IMG/VR virus record: IMGVR_UViG_3300033153_006798
Span: 1 to 41,934 of that record
Length of the DNA: 41,934 nt
DNA from: a virus
Reading direction: 5' to 3' (one strand)
Shown: in pieces, positions 1-41,934 of the stretch
How positions within the stretch are numbered: position 1 is the stretch's first letter
Layout of the letters: every line of letters begins with the position of its first letter
Notes under the pieces: model-generated
The model's database searches: none
What the model was told of the DNA's origin: nothing
What the model saw: only the letters and a program-made list of their open reading frames with translations
Translations under genes and position numbers: made by a program

Positions 1-114
1 GAAGCTCCAACTTCTCCCCCAGAAACTTCAATCCATGCTGAACCATTCCAATATTCAGGTATTATTTCACCAGACCCTTTAACTGCTGCAGTATTAACAA
101 AAGTTTTAATACCA
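1..114. repeat. Terminal direct repeat, left copy (assembly overlap of a circular genome)
   Basis: These 114 bases are identical to the last 114 bases of the window. The repeat lies inside one open reading frame that continues in frame across the join, with no stop and no regulatory sequence. The simplest reading is that a circular, or circularly permuted and terminally redundant, genome was assembled with an overlap. A fixed physical terminal repeat of the virion DNA would more usually lie between genes or near the terminase. The unique genome length is then 41,820 bases. Confidence 0.93.
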
Positions 115-1712
115 AAATGTTCTAAATAATCTATGCCGTTATTAAGAGAACTGGCAATATAAATGGCATTTTCTGCAGCTATCCCCGGAAACGTGAAAGT
201 TGAAGCACTTGCACTTCTGGCTGCTTCACTGACATCTGCAAACGTGCCTCCTGCTGTTTCTGTATAAACAAGCATTCCAATGGTGTAAGAGTCCCCACCT
301 CCAAAAGATGATTCTGTAGGCAGGAGAGGAGTTCCAACGTGCAATTCCCCTAATATCGTCAATCCTTCATCACCTTCTACAGCATCGAGAAGATACACAA
401 AGAATTTTGCACCAGGAATAATAGCGGCATTGCTTAGTTCAGTAAATCCATTCCCCAGCGTTTTGCTGTTTGGATTCAACACCCTAAAATTCAATGCCTG
501 ACATCCGGTAACTGACGTTGCAAACATATCAAGCCTGATATTTGTTCCAACATTTTCTATCCTAAAACCATCATTCTGGCAATTTATAATTTTCAATACA
601 TCAAACTTAACAGCCGTATCTGTTCCTGATAAAATCATTCCATCATAACAATTTTCAATTAAAGAGTTTGTCCCATTAATAGTGCATCCGTTTAAAGCTT
701 TAATTGCTGTAATTAAATTAGGACTTAGGGTTGCAATATCAGAAATATTAAGATGAGCGTTACTCCCATCACCTTCTATTAATGTGGTTATAGTTTTTGC
801 ACTAATAGGTGAAGTGTCAATCACTTTCAGTAATCTAATTGTCGCACTTCCAGATAGAACTCGAACTACTGTGTTGATATCTGAGAAAACCGCAAATACT
901 CCACAATTGATAATATTCATTCCCGCATTTACGTGATCCAATAATATCCCATTCTCACAATCGGTAATAACACAGTCATTGATCAGCGTTTCTCCTGCAA
1001 CATCTTGTACAGCTGCATATTTGCCAGCACCAGAAACACCTTCGAAAGAAAATCCTGTCAATGAAGAAACGTTTTCCATTATAAAAAGATGTTCGTCTGC
1101 ATTCCCAGCACTAATACGAGCACTTGTTCTACCTATGGAGTGACAAGATACATATGTCTTCATCTGAATAGGGTTATCTTCAACATAATTACCGGGAGCA
1201 ACTTGTATAGTCCATTTATCATTCGGTCCACTGACAGATATAGAGTCAAGAGCATCTTTTAATGATGTATAATCCCCGCCTGATTTAGCTACTGTGATTA
1301 CATGATCAAGAAATAAAGCTTCCCAATTAGTTTCATCAGTGTCAGGAGCTGTAGATATTTGTGCCCCTGTTAAATTCTTATATGTAATATTATTATATCT
1401 GAGGATATCTCCGATGTGAATATCAAATGAAAAACCTATATATTCAGCCCAATTCGTGATATTTAATAATGTCAATGAATCTTCTGCAACTTGCACATTA
1501 ACCGGGATTATTTCCCATACTACGGATGAATTTGGGGAGTATATCCCCTTAGGATATTTATATTTACCGACAACAGATAATAGACCACCGCTTCCATTCT
1601 CTACAAACCATAATTCACCTGTATGGATTGCTGCAGCAGGTAATGCTGCATAATTAGCTGCTGTTCCTGATATAAAGATCCCTGTACTTGAGGGAATGAA
1701 TGGTCTAGGCAT
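1..1712 (-). CDS. Beta-helix spike/adhesin protein, N-terminal two thirds (continues at 41820-41046 across the circle)
   Basis: Reading left from ATG at 1712, the frame stays open to base 1 and continues in frame from 41820 to a stop at 41046, giving 828 residues in all. A GTGAGGT Shine-Dalgarno sits about nine bases before the ATG. After an N-terminal domain of about 130 residues, a pectin-lyase-like segment begins with VAKSGGDYTSLKDALDSI and IQVAPGNYVE, the usual opening of right-handed beta-helix proteins. Short repeated rungs rich in Asn, Ile and Cys follow (INDCVITDCENGI, LIENCYDG, IINCQNDGFRI). Such folds are used by phage spikes to bind or cut host polysaccharide; I see no catalytic triad I can assign. 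The gene sits between two head-tail connector genes rather than in the tail-tip cluster, so a role as head fibre or collar spike is as possible as tail spike. Confidence 0.85.
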   Translation of the reverse strand, partial: MPRPFIPSSTGIFISGTAANYAALPAAAIHTGELWFVENGSGGLLSVVGKYKYPKGIYSPNSSVVWEIIPVNVQVAEDSLTLLNITNWAEYIGFSFDIHIGDILRYNNITYKNLTGAQISTAPDTDETNWEALFLDHVITVAKSGGDYTSLKDALDSISVSGPNDKWTIQVAPGNYVEDNPIQMKTYVSCHSIGRTSARISAGNADEHLFIMENVSSLTGFSFEGVSGAGKYAAVQDVAGETLINDCVITDCENGILLDHVNAGMNIINCGVFAVFSDINTVVRVLSGSATIRLLKVIDTSPISAKTITTLIEGDGSNAHLNISDIATLSPNLITAIKALNGCTINGTNSLIENCYDGMILSGTDTAVKFDVLKIINCQNDGFRIENVGTNIRLDMFATSVTGCQALNFRVLNPNSKTLGNGFTELSNAAIIPGAKFFVYLLDAVEGDEGLTILGELHVGTPLLPTESSFGGGDSYTIGMLVYTETAGGTFADVSEAARSASASTFTFPGIAAENAIYIASSLNNGIDYLEHFGIKTFVNTAAVKGSGEIIPEYWNGSAWIEVSGGEVGA

Positions 1713-1944
1713 AAACGCAAACCTCACCACTTACCAATTTAACATCAGTGAAAGATCCTGTAAGGAATGTACCTTTAACAAATGATCTTCCATCCCAAGT
1801 GCCACTTATCAATTTCTGGTCTGTAAGTGTCGTGAATTCTGTATCTTCAAGGAGTAAAACTGATATCCATAATCCAGAATGCAGGTCTGTATCTGAGATG
1901 ATTATTTTATTCCCTGTGTTCGTAATATCGTTATTGTGTAACAC
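1705..1944 (-). CDS. Small beta-rich protein preceding the spike gene
   Basis: A 79-residue protein that overlaps the start of the spike gene by eight bases and begins one base after the connector gene ends, so it is tightly coupled to both. It is rich in Thr, Ser, Gly and beta-branched residues. Its C-terminal half carries two similar turns (SGTWDGRSFVKGTF and TGSFTDVKLVSG), suggesting a small beta structure. There is no signal peptide or membrane segment. Proteins of this size and style often precede fibre genes in phage structural operons. It could be a small particle protein or an adaptor for the spike, but the sequence does not settle this. Confidence 0.7.
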   Translation of the reverse strand: MLHNNDITNTGNKIIISDTDLHSGLWISVLLLEDTEFTTLTDQKLISGTWDGRSFVKGTFLTGSFTDVKLVSGEVCVYA

Positions 1945-2873: not shown

Positions 2874-4034
2874 TCAGGTGCCTCCAATTACACGAACAGC
2901 CAACTCTGGAAACATTGTTTTAACGCCGAATAAAATATCATATCTCAGAATATTGTTATCGTTGTTAACATCGTAGTCCATTACAACTCTAACTGACATT
3001 CCTTTAGCTGACATAACAGCACCATTTGCACCACCAATAGGAGCCGCAAGCGGAGCCATTGCCAAGGCAAATGCTTTCTTCTGAAACATTAAGTTATCAA
3101 CGTGTGCAAGTGCTGTTTCATCAGCAAATGCGATTGTATCAGTATCCGCTGTCGCCCCTCTAAGAGCTGGATATATAGCTACTGTTACTTTCCCTGAACT
3201 TGCTGCTGCTGAAGTAGCAGTTACTACATACTGACCTGCTGCTGCTCCTGCTTCTATCGTGAAGATATCACCTTTAAGTACTGTATCTGAGGAAGTCCCC
3301 CCTGCACTCTCTATATCAAGAGTTACTGCATCGATTGCCTGGACCCCATCTGCTGTCAGGTCTGTTAATGCTGTATAGATTCCGGCAGTATGTGTATTTA
3401 CCTGCTGATCAGCTGCAAGTGTAATATTATGAACTCTTCCAAGTGCTGCTTCTCTCAGAGCTGCATTTGTTCCGGCTTTTGATACATCTGCTAGTGCATC
3501 AAGTGAAATAAATGCTGCTTCTGCGTCAGTATCCATGATAAAATATCTGTCCTCGTTAGGAGCCAGGTTATCCTGAAGCATTTTTCTCGATTTTGCAATA
3601 TCTGCTAATGTATCAGGGATTGTTCCGGCTGTTCCGTAGAAATAAGGAATATCAACAGCAAGCCCTAAAAGAGCATTATTGATATATTCGCTTAATGCAA
3701 CTACAGCACCTTTTGTGTATTTACGGGTAAAATCAGGCACAGATAACGTCAAGTCTTTACTCTTAATATTGACTGCTACTGATCTCTGGAAAGCTAACTG
3801 AATAGTTTCTGAAGTTTCTGCAATATCCTGAAAGCTTCCAGATATATCACCTGATCCGTCTATAGTTGAAAATCTCTGCGGCTTCTCAACCTGTATGCTA
3901 TCACCTTTCTGTTTTGGTGATCCGAATTCACTGTCAAAATTTCTCCAGACAGTCGGCATCATTGCCGTATTAGATGCTAATAGCGGTAACGTACTTGCCG
4001 CTATTGTTTTAACGTCGATAAATGCATTAGACAT
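2874..4034 (-). CDS. Major capsid protein, P22 coat-like
   Basis: A 386-residue protein placed directly after the scaffold gene, the canonical coat position. The N-terminus carries the pattern of P22 gp5-like coat proteins: an early arm (STLPLLASNTAMMPTV), then KGDSIQVEKPQRFS and a segment (FQRSVAVNIKSKDLTLS) like the gp5 family. Residues about 215-300 form an Ala/Thr/Gly-rich stretch that fits an inserted Ig-like domain within the HK97 fold. The ATG at 4034 follows a near-perfect AGGAGGT, the strongest Shine-Dalgarno seen in the head operon, consistent with the most abundant virion protein. The fold family is inferred from these patterns and gene order. Confidence 0.88.
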   Translation of the reverse strand: MSNAFIDVKTIAASTLPLLASNTAMMPTVWRNFDSEFGSPKQKGDSIQVEKPQRFSTIDGSGDISGSFQDIAETSETIQLAFQRSVAVNIKSKDLTLSVPDFTRKYTKGAVVALSEYINNALLGLAVDIPYFYGTAGTIPDTLADIAKSRKMLQDNLAPNEDRYFIMDTDAEAAFISLDALADVSKAGTNAALREAALGRVHNITLAADQQVNTHTAGIYTALTDLTADGVQAIDAVTLDIESAGGTSSDTVLKGDIFTIEAGAAAGQYVVTATSAAASSGKVTVAIYPALRGATADTDTIAFADETALAHVDNLMFQKKAFALAMAPLAAPIGGANGAVMSAKGMSVRVVMDYDVNNDNNILRYDILFGVKTMFPELAVRVIGGT

Positions 4035-9853: not shown

Positions 9854-10079
9854 TGTTTTTATACTCTCTTTGCCTGATAAGTTTTATGAACTCTTTTTGT
9901 GCAGGAGCACTGCCCTGTTTAGCCTGAGTAAATAAAACTTTTCTGATTTCGGCTTCAGCTTTCAGCTGCCCTCTCCTAAACTTTTTCATTTCTTCTTTAG
10001 ATAATTTTTCTTTACCTACTATTATTTTAACATCATCAAGCAAAAATTGCAATTCTCCAAGCATTTCAATATCATCCAT
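9843..10079 (-). CDS. Small helical protein upstream of terminase
   Basis: A 78-residue helical protein overlapping terS by 11 bases and the preceding gene by 8. It is rich in Lys and Glu and ends with a helix pair (VLFTQAKQGSAPAQKEFIKLI) of the kind seen in small proteins next to terminase genes. It may assist terminase or bind DNA; no firm family call. Confidence 0.62.
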   Translation of the reverse strand: MDDIEMLGELQFLLDDVKIIVGKEKLSKEEMKKFRRGQLKAEAEIRKVLFTQAKQGSAPAQKEFIKLIRQREYKNNAK

Positions 10080-10671
10080 CGAAATAAGCTCCTGTTTCTA
10101 ATTCTCCATTCATCCATTCAAGATTGAAATCCGCTGTTCCCTTATCTGTAAATATAACACCTGCTTCTATTCTAGGGTTGTTTGTTAAATTAGCTGATCC
10201 GACTATTGTTATATTCCATTCTTTATTCTGTATTACTGTAACTTTAGCATGACAATTAACAAGCCTTATTTTTGCCGTATTATATTTCATAAACTGGTGC
10301 GCTTCAGGACATCTTATTTTCATTCTCCAATCAAATAGACCATTTAATTGTAAAATGTCACCATCTTCTAGCATTTTTGCTAATTTCGGTATTACAGGAG
10401 AGGAAACACTCCATGTAGATAATGTTATATTTGCAGGGCCAGTCTGTTTTAAGATATGGAATAATAGATCATGTGTTGACCATTCCGCCTTAGATACAAA
10501 TTGGATTACTGTATTTTTTTCTATATTCCCAATCACTTTTTCAAGTGTATCTTTTGAATTAGATTTTTTCATTAATATTTTTGGTTTCTTAATTCTAATT
10601 GCCTTAGATTCTATATTATCTTTTATAGTTGTTTCTTCTAAATCTGACAATGAAAACAATGAGTTTTTCAT
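10072..10671 (-). CDS. Phospholipase-D-like (single HKD) protein
   Basis: A 199-residue protein with one PLD-type active-site motif near the C-terminus: CHAKVTVI, then TIVGSANLTNNPRIEAGVIF (the HxK and GSANLT parts of the HKD motif). Upstream residues STHDLLFHILKQTGPANITL and LFDWRMKI match the pattern of small PLD-like proteins found near phage terminase genes. One HKD per chain implies a dimer, as in Nuc-type nucleases. Whether it acts on DNA or on phosphodiesters of lipid is not shown; the place next to the packaging genes favours DNA. Its ATG overlaps the stop of the small RHH gene. Confidence 0.8.
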   Translation of the reverse strand: MKNSLFSLSDLEETTIKDNIESKAIRIKKPKILMKKSNSKDTLEKVIGNIEKNTVIQFVSKAEWSTHDLLFHILKQTGPANITLSTWSVSSPVIPKLAKMLEDGDILQLNGLFDWRMKIRCPEAHQFMKYNTAKIRLVNCHAKVTVIQNKEWNITIVGSANLTNNPRIEAGVIFTDKGTADFNLEWMNGELETGAYFDG

Positions 10672-30582: not shown

Positions 30583-30925
30583 GTACCTCCTGATTTATTA
30601 CATTTCCGTTAATAACTTCATCTGCTGTCATCGGTTTTGAAAGATCCCATTTAGAATTAGCCTGATATTTAATACCGGCCTTCACACAGTTTCCAGATTT
30701 ATATGGTTCGAGATCAGTTACAAATAAAGTGAGATTTACAATTACTTCATCTTCAGTACGATAACATCTAGTAATTCCAAGGGCTTCTGTTTCTTCATCA
30801 ATGTCATATTCAACAATATCTGTGTTTGTTGGTTCTTCGATTTTAATCTCATTTATTATTAAGATCCCATCTTCTACAGAATATTCAAATCCTGATTGGT
30901 TTTTAATACTTAATTTATATTTCAT
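30572..30925 (-). CDS. Small beta-rich protein after the tail fibre
   Basis: A 117-residue protein; I prefer ATG 30925 because it overlaps the fibre stop (ATGA) and lies eight bases after AGGA, whereas the ATG two codons before is too close to that site. It is acidic and beta-rich (LSIKNQSGFEYSVEDGILII), with a C-terminal domain. It could be a small fibre accessory or receptor-binding piece. Not recognised. Confidence 0.6.
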   Translation of the reverse strand: MKYKLSIKNQSGFEYSVEDGILIINEIKIEEPTNTDIVEYDIDEETEALGITRCYRTEDEVIVNLTLFVTDLEPYKSGNCVKAGIKYQANSKWDLSKPMTADEVINGNVINQEVLDV

Positions 30926-32592
30926 TTCCATTTTCCTTTTGAAACTGATGTATATTCAACAGTTGATGCAGTAATTGACACTGGCGAGGTTGCTACCCAA
31001 TTCCCAGCAGATAAATCTGCATTTGATCCACTGGCAATATATATGAAATGAGATGCCGACATTACTGTTTTTAAAACACTGATTGTCCCCGTAAATGATT
31101 CAGGGAATAATACACCTACATTTGTTGCTGATTTATACTCTGAACCTATTGCCGTAGTTATAGCTAATGACGATATAAGTTGATAATCGCGTATCTCCAT
31201 ATCCCCATTACTCCACTTAGTAACAGTTTGATCACCAATTGTGTATTGCTCAACAACACTATAAGCATCCTCTCCTTCAGTAGTTATCGTATCACCAACA
31301 ATATTATTATATTTATCAATATATGCCCCGTATTCCGCTTCAATCACATTCTCAGGATTTGTCCAAGGTTTATTTAGAGTATAATGAGTATCAGTTATAT
31401 CGGCTGAAGGACGAATCATTATTTCGGAGATGTATCCGTTTAATAAATCTATACTATTATATCTGTCAAAAGTAATTAAAGGCTCTAAATCTGTATATAC
31501 TGGAACATTTATCGTTATTGTTGCTCCCAATGATCCATTTACATATATCCTTGTTCGTGTGCCACTTTCATAAACAATTTTACAATGAGAATATTGCGAA
31601 ACTACTGGAGTAACCGAAGAGTTCACTGATGTAGCAACACCACCTGCAATTGTTGCTATTTGGAAATTCCCAGATGACCACGCAACAATAAGACCCTCTT
31701 GACCACCGTTTGCACGAGTATCAAAAAGAACCCCTGTATCTGTTTTTTCAGGCTTAAACCACATATCAATAGTCCAATCTGTAGACTCATTCCAGTTAAC
31801 AGGATGCACCCATGAATCGGCTGTATGTATTCCTTTGACGTATGGGACAGGGTAGTCTATGCCTCCAATGCAAGAGATTTCTTTGTAGTATGTGTATAGT
31901 CCAGAAGTTGCGGCATTTGACGCAAACACCCTAAAATAGTCTGTTCCGCTTGCTGAGCCCGTCACAACCATCTTTATTATAACTTCATCTGTACCATTGA
32001 TTTGTGTTGAAGTTATTGAGTCAAAATTGCCGGGAGAACCAAAAGATCCAGTTGAAAATGTGTAAGATGTGTTATGTGTTAAACCACCTTGACGTAAAAC
32101 AATATTTATATCATCAGTATTTCCCTTCTTGGCAACGAACGAGCAATAGACCTCATCCTGTGCAGTTGATAAAGTTACTAGAGCATATCCGGCAGCAGCA
32201 GTAGTGTTTTCAATCTTCTCCCATTCTCCGACATCAGTTAATGTTGCGTTACTTAAAGACGGACTCTGCCAGAGATTCTCATATTCTCCAAAAACCCCTG
32301 CTTCACCACGGTTAAACTTTAATAATCCTGCCGTCTTCTTCCATTCTTCATACGGATTCCAGCTAATCTTTTTCTGTACTGATCTGTTGTTCTGAGAGTC
32401 TTTAATCCCGTTAACCGGAATTAAAATATCATCTGTTAATATTGGATCTCCGACATATTTTTTTATGGATAGATTTGAAACTTTAATCTTTCCGTTCGTA
32501 TCTGTCTCACTGTCCCACATCTCTATTAAATCATCATCTATTAAATTAGTTTTTTCATTAGTCAGATCTCTCGGGGTTACTTTCTGAGCCAC
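30922..32592 (-). CDS. Tail fibre with LamG-like domain
   Basis: A 556-residue protein. The N-terminus (DLIEMWDSETDTNGKIKVSN) is like phage tail-fibre attachment regions. The centre (residues about 260-400) has the jelly-roll of a concanavalin/LamG-type domain: ESTDWTIDMWFKPEKTDTGV, HCKIVYESGTRTRIYVNGSL and NGYISEIMIRP. Such domains bind sugars. The C-terminus is a further beta region. It is downstream of the tail-tip genes, so it is likely the main receptor-binding fibre. Confidence 0.8.
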   Translation of the reverse strand: MAQKVTPRDLTNEKTNLIDDDLIEMWDSETDTNGKIKVSNLSIKKYVGDPILTDDILIPVNGIKDSQNNRSVQKKISWNPYEEWKKTAGLLKFNRGEAGVFGEYENLWQSPSLSNATLTDVGEWEKIENTTAAAGYALVTLSTAQDEVYCSFVAKKGNTDDINIVLRQGGLTHNTSYTFSTGSFGSPGNFDSITSTQINGTDEVIIKMVVTGSASGTDYFRVFASNAATSGLYTYYKEISCIGGIDYPVPYVKGIHTADSWVHPVNWNESTDWTIDMWFKPEKTDTGVLFDTRANGGQEGLIVAWSSGNFQIATIAGGVATSVNSSVTPVVSQYSHCKIVYESGTRTRIYVNGSLGATITINVPVYTDLEPLITFDRYNSIDLLNGYISEIMIRPSADITDTHYTLNKPWTNPENVIEAEYGAYIDKYNNIVGDTITTEGEDAYSVVEQYTIGDQTVTKWSNGDMEIRDYQLISSLAITTAIGSEYKSATNVGVLFPESFTGTISVLKTVMSASHFIYIASGSNADLSAGNWVATSPVSITASTVEYTSVSKGKWK

Positions 32593-35362: not shown

Positions 35363-36108
35363 TAAAATCTCTCCTCAAATTCCACATTTAAATTATATGT
35401 CAGTGGATCATTGACCATAGGATATGGATAACTGTCTAAATGCAGTACGCCGTATTTCGGTCTATATAAATCTAATTCATATGAGCCTTCATATTCAACC
35501 AATAAAACCGGATCTATATTTTGTTTCCCTTGTATGATATTTAATATATCTACTAAATCATCATATGATATACCAGAGAAAATAAACGCTACTGTATTGG
35601 CATTATAAAACTTGCTTCCGTATCCCTGCCCACTGGCATTTACTGATGGATTTGATACTACATTTAAACCAGGAGTATGAGGGAATTCAACTGTATTAAA
35701 CTCCAAATATTTACCGATATATATATATCCGATAAATAGAGTGGTTAATGATGAATCTTCAATTGTTATTCTCCAGAACTTTTTCTGTATTACTGAAGTT
35801 AAAAAGAATACCTGATTTAAGGTGCTGAATTTCGGCAATACAATACTTGCGTCCGGGCTTTCTATATCAGTATCAGAATACGACAAGGTAATAACTGCAT
35901 TTGATGTTAGGTTGGTTCCACAAAGAGCTACACAATTCACCTCTGGCTCTGTGGTATTAAAAGTTAAATCTATTACTGTACTGTTTGCAATAGTATTCAT
36001 ATTGTCAACTAACTGAAATGTTTTAAGCTTGTCTGTAAATGTTGAGGATACTATATCTGTCGCTGTTATATCAGCTAATGTTATGTTTGAATATCCGAGT
36101 ATCCGCAT
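35362..36108 (-). CDS. Distal tail protein candidate
   Basis: A 248-residue beta-rich protein directly after the tape measure gene, the usual place for the distal tail (Dit) protein that starts the tip in siphoviruses. The C-terminal part has a galectin-like strand pattern (KFYNANTVAFIFSGISYDDL). It shares one base with the TMP stop (TAATG type). The role is assigned mainly from place and size. Confidence 0.65.
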   Translation of the reverse strand: MRILGYSNITLADITATDIVSSTFTDKLKTFQLVDNMNTIANSTVIDLTFNTTEPEVNCVALCGTNLTSNAVITLSYSDTDIESPDASIVLPKFSTLNQVFFLTSVIQKKFWRITIEDSSLTTLFIGYIYIGKYLEFNTVEFPHTPGLNVVSNPSVNASGQGYGSKFYNANTVAFIFSGISYDDLVDILNIIQGKQNIDPVLLVEYEGSYELDLYRPKYGVLHLDSYPYPMVNDPLTYNLNVEFEERF

Positions 36109-38342
36109 TATTTAACACTCCTTGCATCAATTATCAATTTACCTGTTTTTGTTCCGCTATGAACCGCTTTAAGTATAACAGAACTATCAAGATTTACAAT
36201 GATTGTCTGGGCTCCTGATCCTCCACCCCTTGCAACTCGTAATAACTCTAGCTGCATATCCTGAGTTAAAACCACTTCCTTTGAGTTTAGATTTGCTGTT
36301 ACATTATCACCTGTAAAACTTGTGCCTGGAACAATACCCCCATTTTCGAATGAAGGTCTCGGTGGTGGCTGCTGTGCTGCTATTAATCCAACCTGTACCC
36401 CGGTTAATACGCCGATTGCTGCAGCTGCAATCCCACCCAATATCGGACCGACTACTGGTATTCCTGCTAATGCGTTAAATGCATTTATTGCAGCAGTTGC
36501 ACCGGTTATTATAGTTTCAGCAATTTTTAAAGCTTTGTTAGCATTAAAAGCGTCTATTTCTCGATCATATTTTTCTTCTGCCAGCCTTTTTTCTTCATCA
36601 TTTAAAGACTGTAATCTTGTTTTCTCGGCTTCTGTTAGCCCTTCTTCTGTTTTTGCTTTTGCTTCGAGTGAATCAATTTCCTGCTGGTTTATTCCTAAAA
36701 ATGCATCAAGGGCAGCTCTGGCATTCTCTACGCGCTGATCCAATATATCACTAACTGTATTCGCAATAGACAGTGATACATCCAATAACGCTCTGGCTTC
36801 TTCCCTGTTAATTTCTATTCTTTTCTCTGATTCTTCTTTTACTTTCTCTGTATATTCTTCCTCATTCTCTGCCCTAAACTCTGCGAGGGATAGAAGGAAT
36901 TCTTTTTCATCTTCTCTATTTTCAAGGGTTTCACCCAGAACAACATTAAATCTTTCTGCAAGAGCTATACTGTTTTGTATGCCGGTATCTTCTGTTTGAA
37001 ATCCTTCACTGATTAAATCATTAAGCAATGTTACTAATGCCGCTTTTTTCTCAAACTCTCCGTTACCTTCTATTGTTCCGGCTATAACTTTCTGATCAAT
37101 CTCTGCAATTTCTTCAAGGAATTCTGCGCGTTCTTTATTCAGTATTGTTTGTTTATCTGCCTGGATTATCTGCGCTTCTAATCTTGCCTTTTCTTCTGCG
37201 TCAGCTTTTGCAAACTGTTCAGCAAATTGTGCCCTGGCTGCTGCCTGTCTGGCTTCCCCTGTTGCTATTGCTCTCTGCGCCTGTAATTGTGCAAATATAA
37301 GCGCCTGTTGTCCTTCGAGAGTTTTAATGACTTCTTCGTTTGCTTTTATCTGTGCGTCAGAGACTTTAAGCCCTCTTGATTCAATCTGAGCAATACCTTG
37401 TAACTGGTTTGCCTGTGTTGCTGTTATTTTAGAGCCTAATTTGTCATATGCTGCTTCCAGGTCTTCTATAGATGTTGATTGAGTTTCACCGGTTCCGGTA
37501 ATCTCTTTCATTATCTTGTTTACTTCACGGGATTTATTTATCCAGTCTGTAAACCTTACTACAAGATCAGTTGTTGCTTTTCGCATCGGGGTCATGCCCT
37601 CTGCGATGTTCTCCCCTATGGCTTCCTGTAAATCTCCCATAGCGTTAACCATTTGAACTTGTACACCTGTTGCTGTTTCTGCTGCTGCTTTTGCAACTCC
37701 TCCAAACTGGCTTTCTAATTCATCAAGGATTATCCCCTGAGCTTTAGCTACTTCATTGTTTTCAACAAATCCTTTTATTAAATCTTTCTGGGTATCTGTA
37801 AATTGTATTCCGACACGGGTTAATGCAGCTATCCCACCAATAGGGTCATTTAAGGCTTTACCTAATTGTATTGTCGATGATTTTAAATCTGTCCCCATTG
37901 CTTCGGAGACATCAAGTATTGATTCAAGTGCTCGCGGGAATGTATCCCGACCAATATCTTTAAATGTCAAAAGAAGGCTTTCTGCCCCGATTATCGCTTC
38001 ATCACCGAACTTTGTCATAGTCTGCAAAGATGAAGCCATATCAGTTAATTCATTTGCTGTCAGCCCTGCGGCTTCTCCGGTTGCTTTTATTGTCTGGTTT
38101 AATTTAGCTTCGGCTGTTTCCTGAACCTGAAATGCCTTTTCTGCTGCTTTACCTACATCTATAATTTTCTTTGCGACAAATGCAAGCCCGATACCAGCAA
38201 AAACTTTCTTTAATGTTGCTCCAAGTTTTGTTAGATTTTTACCGCTTTTCTTGACTTCTTTGTCTGTTTTTTTAACACTTTTATCAAGCTGTGAGGAATC
38301 ACCAATTATTTTATATATTAATTGACCTATTATCTGATTCAT
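36108..38342 (-). CDS. Tail tape measure protein
   Basis: A 744-residue protein, by far the longest of the tail genes, after the frameshifted chaperone. It has long helical and coiled-coil regions (residues about 280-560), a hydrophobic Ala/Gly/Ile-rich segment (PVVGPILGGIAAAAIGVLTG, near 655-675) and the closing FENGGIVPGTSFTGDNV and NSKEVVLTQDM found in many prophage tape measures. At about 0.15 nm per residue the tail would be near 110 nm. The ATG at 38342 follows GAGG five bases upstream. Confidence 0.92.
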   Translation of the reverse strand: MNQIIGQLIYKIIGDSSQLDKSVKKTDKEVKKSGKNLTKLGATLKKVFAGIGLAFVAKKIIDVGKAAEKAFQVQETAEAKLNQTIKATGEAAGLTANELTDMASSLQTMTKFGDEAIIGAESLLLTFKDIGRDTFPRALESILDVSEAMGTDLKSSTIQLGKALNDPIGGIAALTRVGIQFTDTQKDLIKGFVENNEVAKAQGIILDELESQFGGVAKAAAETATGVQVQMVNAMGDLQEAIGENIAEGMTPMRKATTDLVVRFTDWINKSREVNKIMKEITGTGETQSTSIEDLEAAYDKLGSKITATQANQLQGIAQIESRGLKVSDAQIKANEEVIKTLEGQQALIFAQLQAQRAIATGEARQAAARAQFAEQFAKADAEEKARLEAQIIQADKQTILNKERAEFLEEIAEIDQKVIAGTIEGNGEFEKKAALVTLLNDLISEGFQTEDTGIQNSIALAERFNVVLGETLENREDEKEFLLSLAEFRAENEEEYTEKVKEESEKRIEINREEARALLDVSLSIANTVSDILDQRVENARAALDAFLGINQQEIDSLEAKAKTEEGLTEAEKTRLQSLNDEEKRLAEEKYDREIDAFNANKALKIAETIITGATAAINAFNALAGIPVVGPILGGIAAAAIGVLTGVQVGLIAAQQPPPRPSFENGGIVPGTSFTGDNVTANLNSKEVVLTQDMQLELLRVARGGGSGAQTIIVNLDSSVILKAVHSGTKTGKLIIDARSVK

Positions 38343-39873: not shown

Positions 39874-40254
39874 TTACCTGATCCGTACTAACACCTCGAC
39901 AGGTGCATTATAGTCCTCGGCTGTTCCAGGTGCCGGGATTACCTGCTGTTTACTACAGAGAAAAAACGCATCGTTATCCCCTGCTTTCCTGTTTAGTGAT
40001 GTAAAAACCTCGTGCTGAATTGTCTTTACATCATTCCATTTTTTAGCAAAACAATTAACCGTAATGCCAAATTCATTATATTCCAAACCACCGTTTATTG
40101 GTAGTGAATTATACATAGTGATACTTTTATCCGGGAATTTGTCCGGTGCTACAGGCCTACCATAGATAGCCGGTTTAGTTTTGTATGTTCCTACGCTTGA
40201 GACTACTGCAACTGTATCTAATAATTTTGCTTTTACTTCTGTTAATCCATCCAT
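39874..40254 (-). CDS. Tail terminator / completion protein
   Basis: A 126-residue protein before the major tail protein, the place of the tail-to-head joining terminator (gp17/U-like). It has a short helix, then alternating strands (KSITMYNSLPINGGLEYNEF, TVNCFAKKWNDVKTIQHEVF) consistent with the alpha/beta sandwich of that family. It shares a base with the preceding gene. Confidence 0.68.
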   Translation of the reverse strand: MDGLTEVKAKLLDTVAVVSSVGTYKTKPAIYGRPVAPDKFPDKSITMYNSLPINGGLEYNEFGITVNCFAKKWNDVKTIQHEVFTSLNRKAGDNDAFFLCSKQQVIPAPGTAEDYNAPVEVLVRIR

Positions 40255-40712
40255 TAAATAAAAGTCTCCCTTTGCTGCCCTTCTCTTAAACCCCCTCTTG
40301 CCATTTCATCATTGATTTTTCTTATTACATTTTGCGCATCCTGCCCCTTAGTCAATGCTGCGGCAGGACGCAAAAAAGGTTTAGGTGCCATCTTTCTTGT
40401 ACCAAATTCCTGATAAACTGCATAATCTGCTGTAGACCCGACAACGGCCTCATTCGGTTTTAATTGAAAAGTTAATTTATTAGCTTGTTTATTACTTCCA
40501 TCACTATTAAGACCACCGGCTTTATTGTCACCCGTGATATATTGTTTGCTGTTGTTTAATAGTCCTGTATCATTTACAGCCCCTAACGTTTTTGCATTAG
40601 CTGTCATCCTGATAGCGAACTCAAGGACTCCCTTCTGTGCTGCTGATAGTGTTACTCTATTAAAATTTCTTGTGCTGAAAAATTCTACACTAGACTGTAG
40701 TGCCATAATCAA
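40254..40712 (-). CDS. HK97 gp10-like head-tail joining protein
   Basis: A 152-residue basic protein. It has KGVLEFAIRMTANAKTLGAV (helix), NEAVVGSTADYAVYQEFGTR and KMAPKPFLRPAAALTKGQDA, the phrase YAxYxEFGTRxMxPxPFLRPA being the hallmark of the HK97 gp10 family. That family sits in the neck or tail-completion complex. It overlaps the upstream closure gene by 23 bases. Confidence 0.87.
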   Translation of the reverse strand: MIMALQSSVEFFSTRNFNRVTLSAAQKGVLEFAIRMTANAKTLGAVNDTGLLNNSKQYITGDNKAGGLNSDGSNKQANKLTFQLKPNEAVVGSTADYAVYQEFGTRKMAPKPFLRPAAALTKGQDAQNVIRKINDEMARGGLREGQQRETFI

Positions 40713-41046
40713 CCGCCTTTACTGCAATAACCAGTATATCGCCTTGAAACATTACATCGTCAGCATTGACAACAATAAACTCCAAGCCGTTATCTAATAC
40801 AATCTTTGCCCCATCCGGCACCGTTCCAATACTAGACACTACTACACCGGAAGCTTCTGTTTTATATCTATCTGATATTAAATTCTCTGCTGCTGATCCT
40901 GTCCAATATGCACACTGTATACCAGTTAATGTTGCTACTGCTGCAAATCCTTCGTTTACTTCATCGTCACCATCAAGTGTAGTCAATTTTGGGTAGACAG
41001 AATATGTTCTGTTCATTTCTTCTGAAAAATCGCTTAAGAATCCCAT
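40690..41046 (-). CDS. Head closure (stopper) protein
   Basis: A 118-residue beta-rich protein that fits the SPP1 gp16-like stopper by size and place before the gp10-like gene. It has the small-barrel strand pattern: GIQCAYWTGSAAENLISDRY, then VPDGAKIVLDNGLEFIVVNA and ILVIAVKAVD. It shares a base with the end of the spike gene. So the spike lies between adaptor and stopper genes. Confidence 0.7.
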   Translation of the reverse strand: MGFLSDFSEEMNRTYSVYPKLTTLDGDDEVNEGFAAVATLTGIQCAYWTGSAAENLISDRYKTEASGVVVSSIGTVPDGAKIVLDNGLEFIVVNADDVMFQGDILVIAVKAVDYGTTV

Positions 41047-41934
41047 TAAATATGACCACCCTCACACCATTTTGTATAAGTTACTTGTGAACTTGTCAAA
41101 GTAAAAGTGCCATTCAAATCAGTTGATTGCATTGATATCCATATTTCATCTCCAAATCCCACAGGTCTTCTACTTCTCATTTCTTTAACATCAATTAACG
41201 CTTCAAACATACTGACCTCTGCTGCTGTTATAGCCTTTGTAATGACAACAGTCTTGATGCCGGGACTCGCTCCTGGCTCAGTTAAATAATATAAATCTAA
41301 TCCGTTATCTGTTACCCAACCGACTCTTATTGTCCATTCAATTGTCTGAGTATCTGTAGCTCTCCCTGCCCATTGAAGGACTAAAGGGCATGATGTATCA
41401 AAATCAAAAGGCAAGAATCCGGCAACTCCGGTTTTATCTGTGTCTAATGTGAATTTATTCTGAGTAAATCCTACTCCAACATCTTCATTTATATAAATAG
41501 TTTGAGATTGCATATTCCCTTCAAACGGTCTTGCACTGGAGAAATCTAACCCAAGCTGCCCGATAGGTCTTGCTTTTCCCCGATATTCAATCCAACCGTC
41601 CGCATTAGGTTCAAATGTATTATCGTGCAGTTTAAACTGTTCAAATATTGGGGCGGTTGTAATCGTTGTTACTATTCGATATCTTATCCAGAAGTAATCT
41701 GTTCCTATAGATGGTGTTATGGGATCATTTTTAACCCAATCATCCATTCTATTAGTATATCGGATCTGAAAATCTCCAGTATCCTCAAAATAATCATTTG
41801 CATTTGGAAAATACTGCCCAGAAGCTCCAACTTCTCCCCCAGAAACTTCAATCCATGCTGAACCATTCCAATATTCAGGTATTATTTCACCAGACCCTTT
41901 AACTGCTGCAGTATTAACAAAAGTTTTAATACCA
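41046..41934 (-). CDS. Beta-helix spike/adhesin protein, C-terminal part (continues from base 1)
   Basis: This is the last third of the 828-residue protein that starts at 1712. The internal ATG at 41747 is not the start, since the frame is open through the circle join. After the beta-helix comes a domain that includes YWNGSAWIEVSGGEVGAS, YFWIRYRI and a C-terminal module with WIEYRGKARPIGQLGLDFSS and an ending TKWCEGGHI. I have the impression that this C-terminal module recurs in phage particle proteins, but cannot name a family. It may trimerise the spike or attach it to the particle. Confidence 0.85.
   Translation of the reverse strand, partial: GIKTFVNTAAVKGSGEIIPEYWNGSAWIEVSGGEVGASGQYFPNANDYFEDTGDFQIRYTNRMDDWVKNDPITPSIGTDYFWIRYRIVTTITTAPIFEQFKLHDNTFEPNADGWIEYRGKARPIGQLGLDFSSARPFEGNMQSQTIYINEDVGVGFTQNKFTLDTDKTGVAGFLPFDFDTSCPLVLQWAGRATDTQTIEWTIRVGWVTDNGLDLYYLTEPGASPGIKTVVITKAITAAEVSMFEALIDVKEMRSRRPVGFGDEIWISMQSTDLNGTFTLTSSQVTYTKWCEGGHI
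41821..41934. repeat. Terminal direct repeat, right copy
   Basis: Identical to bases 1-114; see the left copy. Bases beyond 41820 should not be counted twice when the circle is closed. Confidence 0.93.

Follow-up and report, generated by a model that had tools for sequence, protein, structure and literature searches.

A candidate adhesin with a mobile beta-helix module, encoded between the adaptor and putative stopper genes of an environmental siphovirus-type phage

Lactococcal phages provide the closest described precedent for an adhesin-like protein at the phage neck. In about two thirds of the 936 phages, a gene for a neck passage structure (NPS) precedes the major tail gene, and immunogold labeling places its product between the capsid and the tail (PMC4759559). 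Two of the seven NPS groups (D and E) end in a predicted beta-helix, with HHpred hits to 1gq8 and 2pyg (PMC6669499), and the NPS of phage TP901-1 is associated with the portal vertex and is non-essential (PMC4493119). Given this lactococcal precedent, a beta-helix at the neck is not new. Head-proximal adhesion has also been described for RcGTA: its head spikes, mounted on capsid pentamers, attach to capsule (PMC7296036). Neck fibers are known from Anabaena phage A-1(L) (PMC10966104).

Here we describe a spike gene from an environmental viral record (IMG/VR IMGVR_UViG_3300033153_006798); the window, that is, the whole stretch of DNA that was analyzed, comprises 41,934 nucleotides. What is new here is an unannotated module family, spread over podo-, myo- and siphovirus-type phages, with repeated placement in head clusters.

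Gene structure and neighborhood of the spike

Bases 1–114 of the window are equal to bases 41821–41934, forming a 114-bp terminal direct repeat, and the record therefore closes into a circle of 41,820 unique bases. Read across the circular join, with the duplicate 114 bases left out, the spike frame on the minus strand stays open for 828 codons, from an ATG at 1712 to a stop at 41046–41048. This confirms the sequence-only reading, which had proposed an 828-residue protein crossing the contig join. The span it cited for this protein, 1–1944, does hold the neighboring 79-aa gene but covers only the first 570 residues of the spike, and the ORF listed at 41046–41747 (233 aa) is merely the in-frame tail of the same protein. 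The 79-aa gene overlaps the spike start by 8 bases, and the spike stop overlaps the ATG of the next gene by one base (TAATG), the latter as had been read from the sequence.

The genes are arranged in the order TerS, TerL, portal, MuF-type minor head protein, capsid protein, adaptor, 79-aa gene, spike, 118-aa putative stopper, Neck1, further genes and tape measure. Unlike the gene of an ordinary tail-tip receptor-binding protein, the spike gene is not downstream of the tape measure gene; it sits between the adaptor and the putative stopper. The adaptor assignment was borne out by a PHROG head-tail adaptor match, and a separate LamG-domain protein was indeed found at the normal tail-tip position (Table 1). 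The stopper supposed to lie beside the spike is less firm: a gene of fitting position and size is present, but its 118-aa product gave no family match. A search for relatives of the 79-aa gene found none.

Table 1. Features of the spike locus and its surroundings in the window.
Feature	Coordinates	Strand	Basis or remark
Terminal direct repeat, equal to 41821-41934	1..114	.	circular assembly mark
Spike gene, first part, residues 1-570 (ATG 1712)	1..1712	-	continues at 41820
Spike gene, second part after circular join, to stop 41046-41048	41046..41820	-	
Spike residues 1-137, presumed virion anchor and short fiber-type module	1302..1712	-	no confident model
Spike residues 138-424, right-handed parallel beta-helix (pectin-lyase-like)	441..1301	-	AF2; VIA-align; hmmsearch match to 1gq8
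Spike residues about 476-570, first part of conserved domain II (GGGDSYTxGM, EYWNGSAW)	1..287	-	alignments, homolog model, conservation
Spike residues about 571-642, remainder of domain II (APxFEQFKLH motif)	41607..41820	-	alignments, homolog model, conservation
Spike residues about 643-828, C-terminal beta-sandwich/jelly-roll-like domain ending WCEGGHI	41049..41606	-	alignments, homolog model
79-aa gene between adaptor and spike	1705..1944	-	weak phrog_34166 match, 0.004
Head-tail adaptor, 199 aa	1946..2545	-	phrog_442, 2e-8; 81% identical to L007 adaptor
Major capsid protein	2874..4034	-	phrog_283
Putative stopper (head closure), 118 aa	40690..41046	-	position and size only
Neck1 / HK97-gp10-like protein	40254..40712	-	phrog_5, 2e-15
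Tape measure protein	36108..38342	-	
LamG-domain protein, usual tail-tip position downstream of tape measure	30922..32592	-	PF13385, 1e-13

One strain (L006) is 99.9% identical to the window over 10 kb. We rejected a premature stop in this strain as biological, since it depends on one base located 10 bases from a contig end. Six of the ten differences between the window and L006 fall within 55 bases (10521–10575), just upstream of the start region of the gene at 10072–10671.

In the closest relative with an intact region (L007; its capsid protein is 63% identical), the slot holds an unrelated 275-aa phrog_8198 protein in place of the spike; this family otherwise occurs mainly in cyanophages, where it is annotated in part as a tail fiber. 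Judged from this one close relative only, the presence of the spike in the slot varies among close relatives. In L010, the adaptor and head closure genes are adjacent and a 173-aa phrog_5335 protein precedes the adaptor, while in L015, which shares the capsid family, the region between Neck1 and the tail terminator encodes an 847-aa protein that matches LamG twice and has cadherin-like segments. The contents of these three genomes indicate that extra surface-type proteins are a recurrent feature of head-to-neck clusters in this phage group. The 847-aa protein (L015:10193-12736) has an apparent signal peptide. Between the capsid and adaptor genes of another genome lies a 443-aa ORF rich in Thr-Pro repeats and mucin-like in character (L014:7449-8780).

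Spike anatomy and the module family

AF2 was run on residues 1–570 of the spike with 19 relatives, and the C-terminal domains were seen in the model of a full-length homolog. Residues 138–424 form a right-handed parallel beta-helix, with a pLDDT mostly above 90. VIA-align matched this helix at Z 25–27 to alginate epimerases, polygalacturonases, the Pam1, Sf6 and HK620 tailspikes and phi29 gp12, in agreement with the pectin-lyase-type fold recognized earlier, and the family profile matched the pectinesterase 1gq8 (hmmsearch, 1e-4). Since the Z scores are tied, the fold is no guide among enzyme, tailspike and neck appendage. Conservation peaks in the three motifs of domain II (GGGDSYTxGM, EYWNGSAW and APxFEQFKLH) and is low in the helix, which beyond its first coils retains only glycines and one cysteine; a shared active site is therefore not evident. 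Within the helix no acidic residue is conserved in 80% of relatives and, with no catalytic acidic residue conserved, we neither claim nor reject enzyme activity for the spike.

The full-length homolog, a 757-aa protein of a P22-like phage (L017), was modeled with a mean pLDDT of 81 and consists of a helical N-terminus (low confidence), a beta-helix (73–360), a beta domain (405–571) and a C-terminal beta domain (572–757). The best predicted viral structure for this model (m6704d4498e47; L017:6807-9080) was Mimivirus LCMiAC01 A0A481Z030 (784 aa; 20% identity over 738 columns; E 2e-37), and Marseillevirus LCMAC201 matched it as well; either giant viruses also possess the module or contigs were misbinned.

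The N-terminus of the spike stands apart. Residues 1–134 gave no confident AF2 model (pLDDT below 50), residues 1–136 matched no PDB sequence, and searches for relatives (residues 1–92 in viral contigs, residues 1–136 in phage records) yielded nothing beyond the near-identical strain and two Vibrio phage matches at chance level. A resemblance of residues 17–67 to part of a huge-phage fiber-like protein was detected by blastp (5e-4). Residues 1–137 are thus a putative anchor, in which neither a neck anchor nor a tail adaptor was recognized by sequence or by a confident model. A Pfam search with all 828 residues yielded no family at E 0.1, including no head-binding domain, and the sole PHROG match of the spike (phrog_17251, ‘membrane protein’, 0.002, 47 residues) was judged to be due to chance.

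Together, the beta-helix and the two C-terminal beta domains constitute a module for which Pfam gave no match and PHROGs no useful one. Among 50,697 phage records, searched with the whole protein and with its C-terminal part, no full-length relative was present, and part matches came only from huge-phage metagenome records. Scans of environmental viral contigs placed the module in about 25 viruses; the last scan round yielded 28 loci, duplicates included, and a further contig came from an Omnitrophota bin. It is always C-terminal and is attached to very different N-termini, including collagen-like, T4-like, DUF2793 and helical ones, among others; the module body is 54–57% identical in podophages and about 40–48% identical in P2/Mu-like tail-fiber genes. 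Strain L006 and the T7-like podophage L021 (C-terminal module 57% identical) both originate from metagenome 3300033148, as if sharing one host surface. With its beta-helix, GGGDSYTxGM domain and WCEGGHI end, this is a name-worthy family of large environmental virion proteins unannotated in Pfam and PHROGs. It offers a natural comparison of one exposed module on different anchors, which bears on what sets the position of an adhesin on the virion.

Gene order in relatives, which the sequence-only reading had proposed as a check, proved to be divided. A tail-fiber slot holds the module in two phages with a P2/Mu-like baseplate (L025 and L027, after two baseplate wedge genes), in a siphophage (L029, after the large tail-tip protein) and in L021 (in the last structural gene); in L017 it directly follows a gp10-like hub (phrog_578), with another spike-type protein further down. 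Head clusters hold it in L031, where the order is portal, spike, ClpP-type head protease, decoration and capsid protein, and in L035, where portal, protease/capsid, two small genes and the spike are followed further on by tail terminator-like, tail tube-like and tape measure genes, with a separate LamG/DUF2341 protein after the tape measure. The portal gene of the latter contig (L035:3022-4581) is apparently split into two ORFs. As other phages carry the module body in an ordinary tail-fiber slot, a role of the spike in host contact is likely.

A maximum-likelihood tree built on domain II and the C-terminus placed the window spike beside P2/Mu-like tail fibers (96/89), L031 outside the group formed by the window and these tail fibers, and L035 in another well-supported group. 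The hypothesis of a single lineage of head-cluster copies was rejected on this tree. Given its well-supported branches, the head-cluster label must have changed three or more times, with the proviso that few contexts could be judged and that losses could account for some of these changes.

Candidate positions of the spike on the virion

The location of the gene between adaptor and stopper, its overlaps with both neighbors, the separate tail-tip protein and the repeated capture of the module into head clusters favor head-proximal display. With moderate confidence, we read the spike as a mobile adhesin module captured into a head-proximal slot, fitted with an N-terminal anchor of its own and displayed at the neck or portal vertex. 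The earlier proposal of a second host-contact device at the neck or head is partly supported, by the adhesin module, the position among neck genes, the LamG protein and the head-cluster copies in L031 and L035; the neck is a candidate placement, since neither a neck anchor nor a tail adaptor was recognized in the N-terminus. Gene position is not proof of virion position, but a head-proximal adhesin is a plausible and the most economical reading.

According to this reading, the spike would serve on the virion as an adhesin whose body is a beta-helix and which, like beta-helix spikes already known, probably forms trimers. The mobile module (residues about 138–828) would be its exposed portion, one that unrelated phages also employ as a tail fiber or spike; in this siphovirus-type phage it would have been joined to an N-terminal anchor private to the protein and inserted into an accessory slot that separates adaptor from stopper. 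The protein would be made together with head and neck proteins and most likely attached by its N-terminus to the neck or portal vertex, where it could add to the tail-tip LamG protein a second contact, reversible and probably directed at polysaccharide; sugar contact as its function is suggested by its fold and company. Several points count against this reading: the nearest module relatives on the tree are myophage tail fibers, the putative anchor has no recognizable relative, the fold does not require a neck role, as tailspikes share the beta-helix, the helix keeps no catalytic acidic residue that would speak for sugar cleavage or binding, and the neck structure is non-essential in one well-studied relative system (PMC4493119).

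The same adhesin might instead be mounted on the capsid shell, for example at the vertices, as the capsule-binding RcGTA head spikes are on capsid pentamers (PMC7296036). Such a head fiber would fit a gene that adjoins the head genes, as well as the module of L031, encoded between portal and head protease beside a decoration protein. In the window, however, the spike gene is found past the adaptor, to the neck side of the capsid gene, and we regard a head fiber as unlikely. Still less credence goes to an ordinary tail-tip spike with a gene displaced to the head cluster. Tail fibers of P2/Mu-like myophages and a T7-like podophage are indeed the closest relatives of the module, and the similarity of residues 17–67 to a huge-phage fiber-like protein points the same way, but the tree implies three or more origins of head-cluster placement, the tail-tip position is already taken by a LamG protein both here and in L035, and the spike N-terminus is unlike those of all tail-fiber relatives. 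Tail-tip relatives, which the sequence-only reading had named as evidence against its proposal, do exist for the module by gene position, yet they bear other N-termini, so their position does not decide the location of the spike. A non-virion protein, accessory or free and polysaccharide-active and made late in infection, is very improbable: the fold is common to polysaccharide enzymes and no anchor was recognized, but the relatives are encoded as structural fiber genes, the spike has no apparent signal peptide and its gene lies within the morphogenesis operon.

Beyond this locus, head-proximal display of the spike may exemplify a wider pattern, which we put forward tentatively: a module unknown to curated libraries moves among phages of all tail types and, through at least three separate captures into the head/neck cluster, combines with a private anchor to give a second adhesion organ close to the head. 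The search for receptor-binding parts usually starts past the tape measure gene; if the present reading is right, host-range predictors confined to that region would miss head-cluster adhesins.

Comparison with known systems

Like the window spike, the NPS proteins of lactococcal 936 and P335 phages are accessory, adhesin-like proteins of 500–900 residues with a modular C-terminus, encoded by variably present genes that lie in the head-to-tail connector region and precede the major tail gene. NPS groups D and E share with it a C-terminal beta-helix module, and 1gq8 and 2pyg were also returned here by Foldseek and hmmsearch. The NPS N-terminus is predicted to be BppU-like with a coiled coil, whereas neither was recognized by sequence in the spike, whose corresponding region was modeled below pLDDT 50. 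Moreover, the NPS gene immediately precedes the major tail gene and the spike gene lies between adaptor and putative stopper, and the neck position of NPS has been seen on particles, whereas the spike is known from genes alone.

The phi29 gp12 pre-neck appendage, displayed at the neck, has the same beta-helix fold (3gq8, Z 26.4, 2.9 Å over 296 residues; 3suc, also Z 26.4), but this likeness is tied with those to many tailspikes and enzymes and indicates no special kinship. It differs in belonging to a podovirus and in its C-terminal region. phi29 gp12 has a C-terminal self-cleaving assembly domain. Tailspikes of the P22/Sf6/HK620 type share the right-handed parallel beta-helix (Z about 25 to Sf6 and HK620) but have other C-terminal domains; no head-binding domain was recognized by Pfam in the spike, and its gene does not follow the tail genes.

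The neck fibers of A-1(L) (gp80-gp82) are analogous as neck-anchored trimeric fibers with a distal carbohydrate-binding-like domain, but differ in genes located far from the structural genes, in a bead-chain architecture and in that no host binding was measured (PMC10966104). The RcGTA head spikes (Rcc01079/Rcc01080) differ in comprising two proteins and in sitting on capsid pentamers, and their head-proximal, reversible capsule binding provides the working analogy to the spike.
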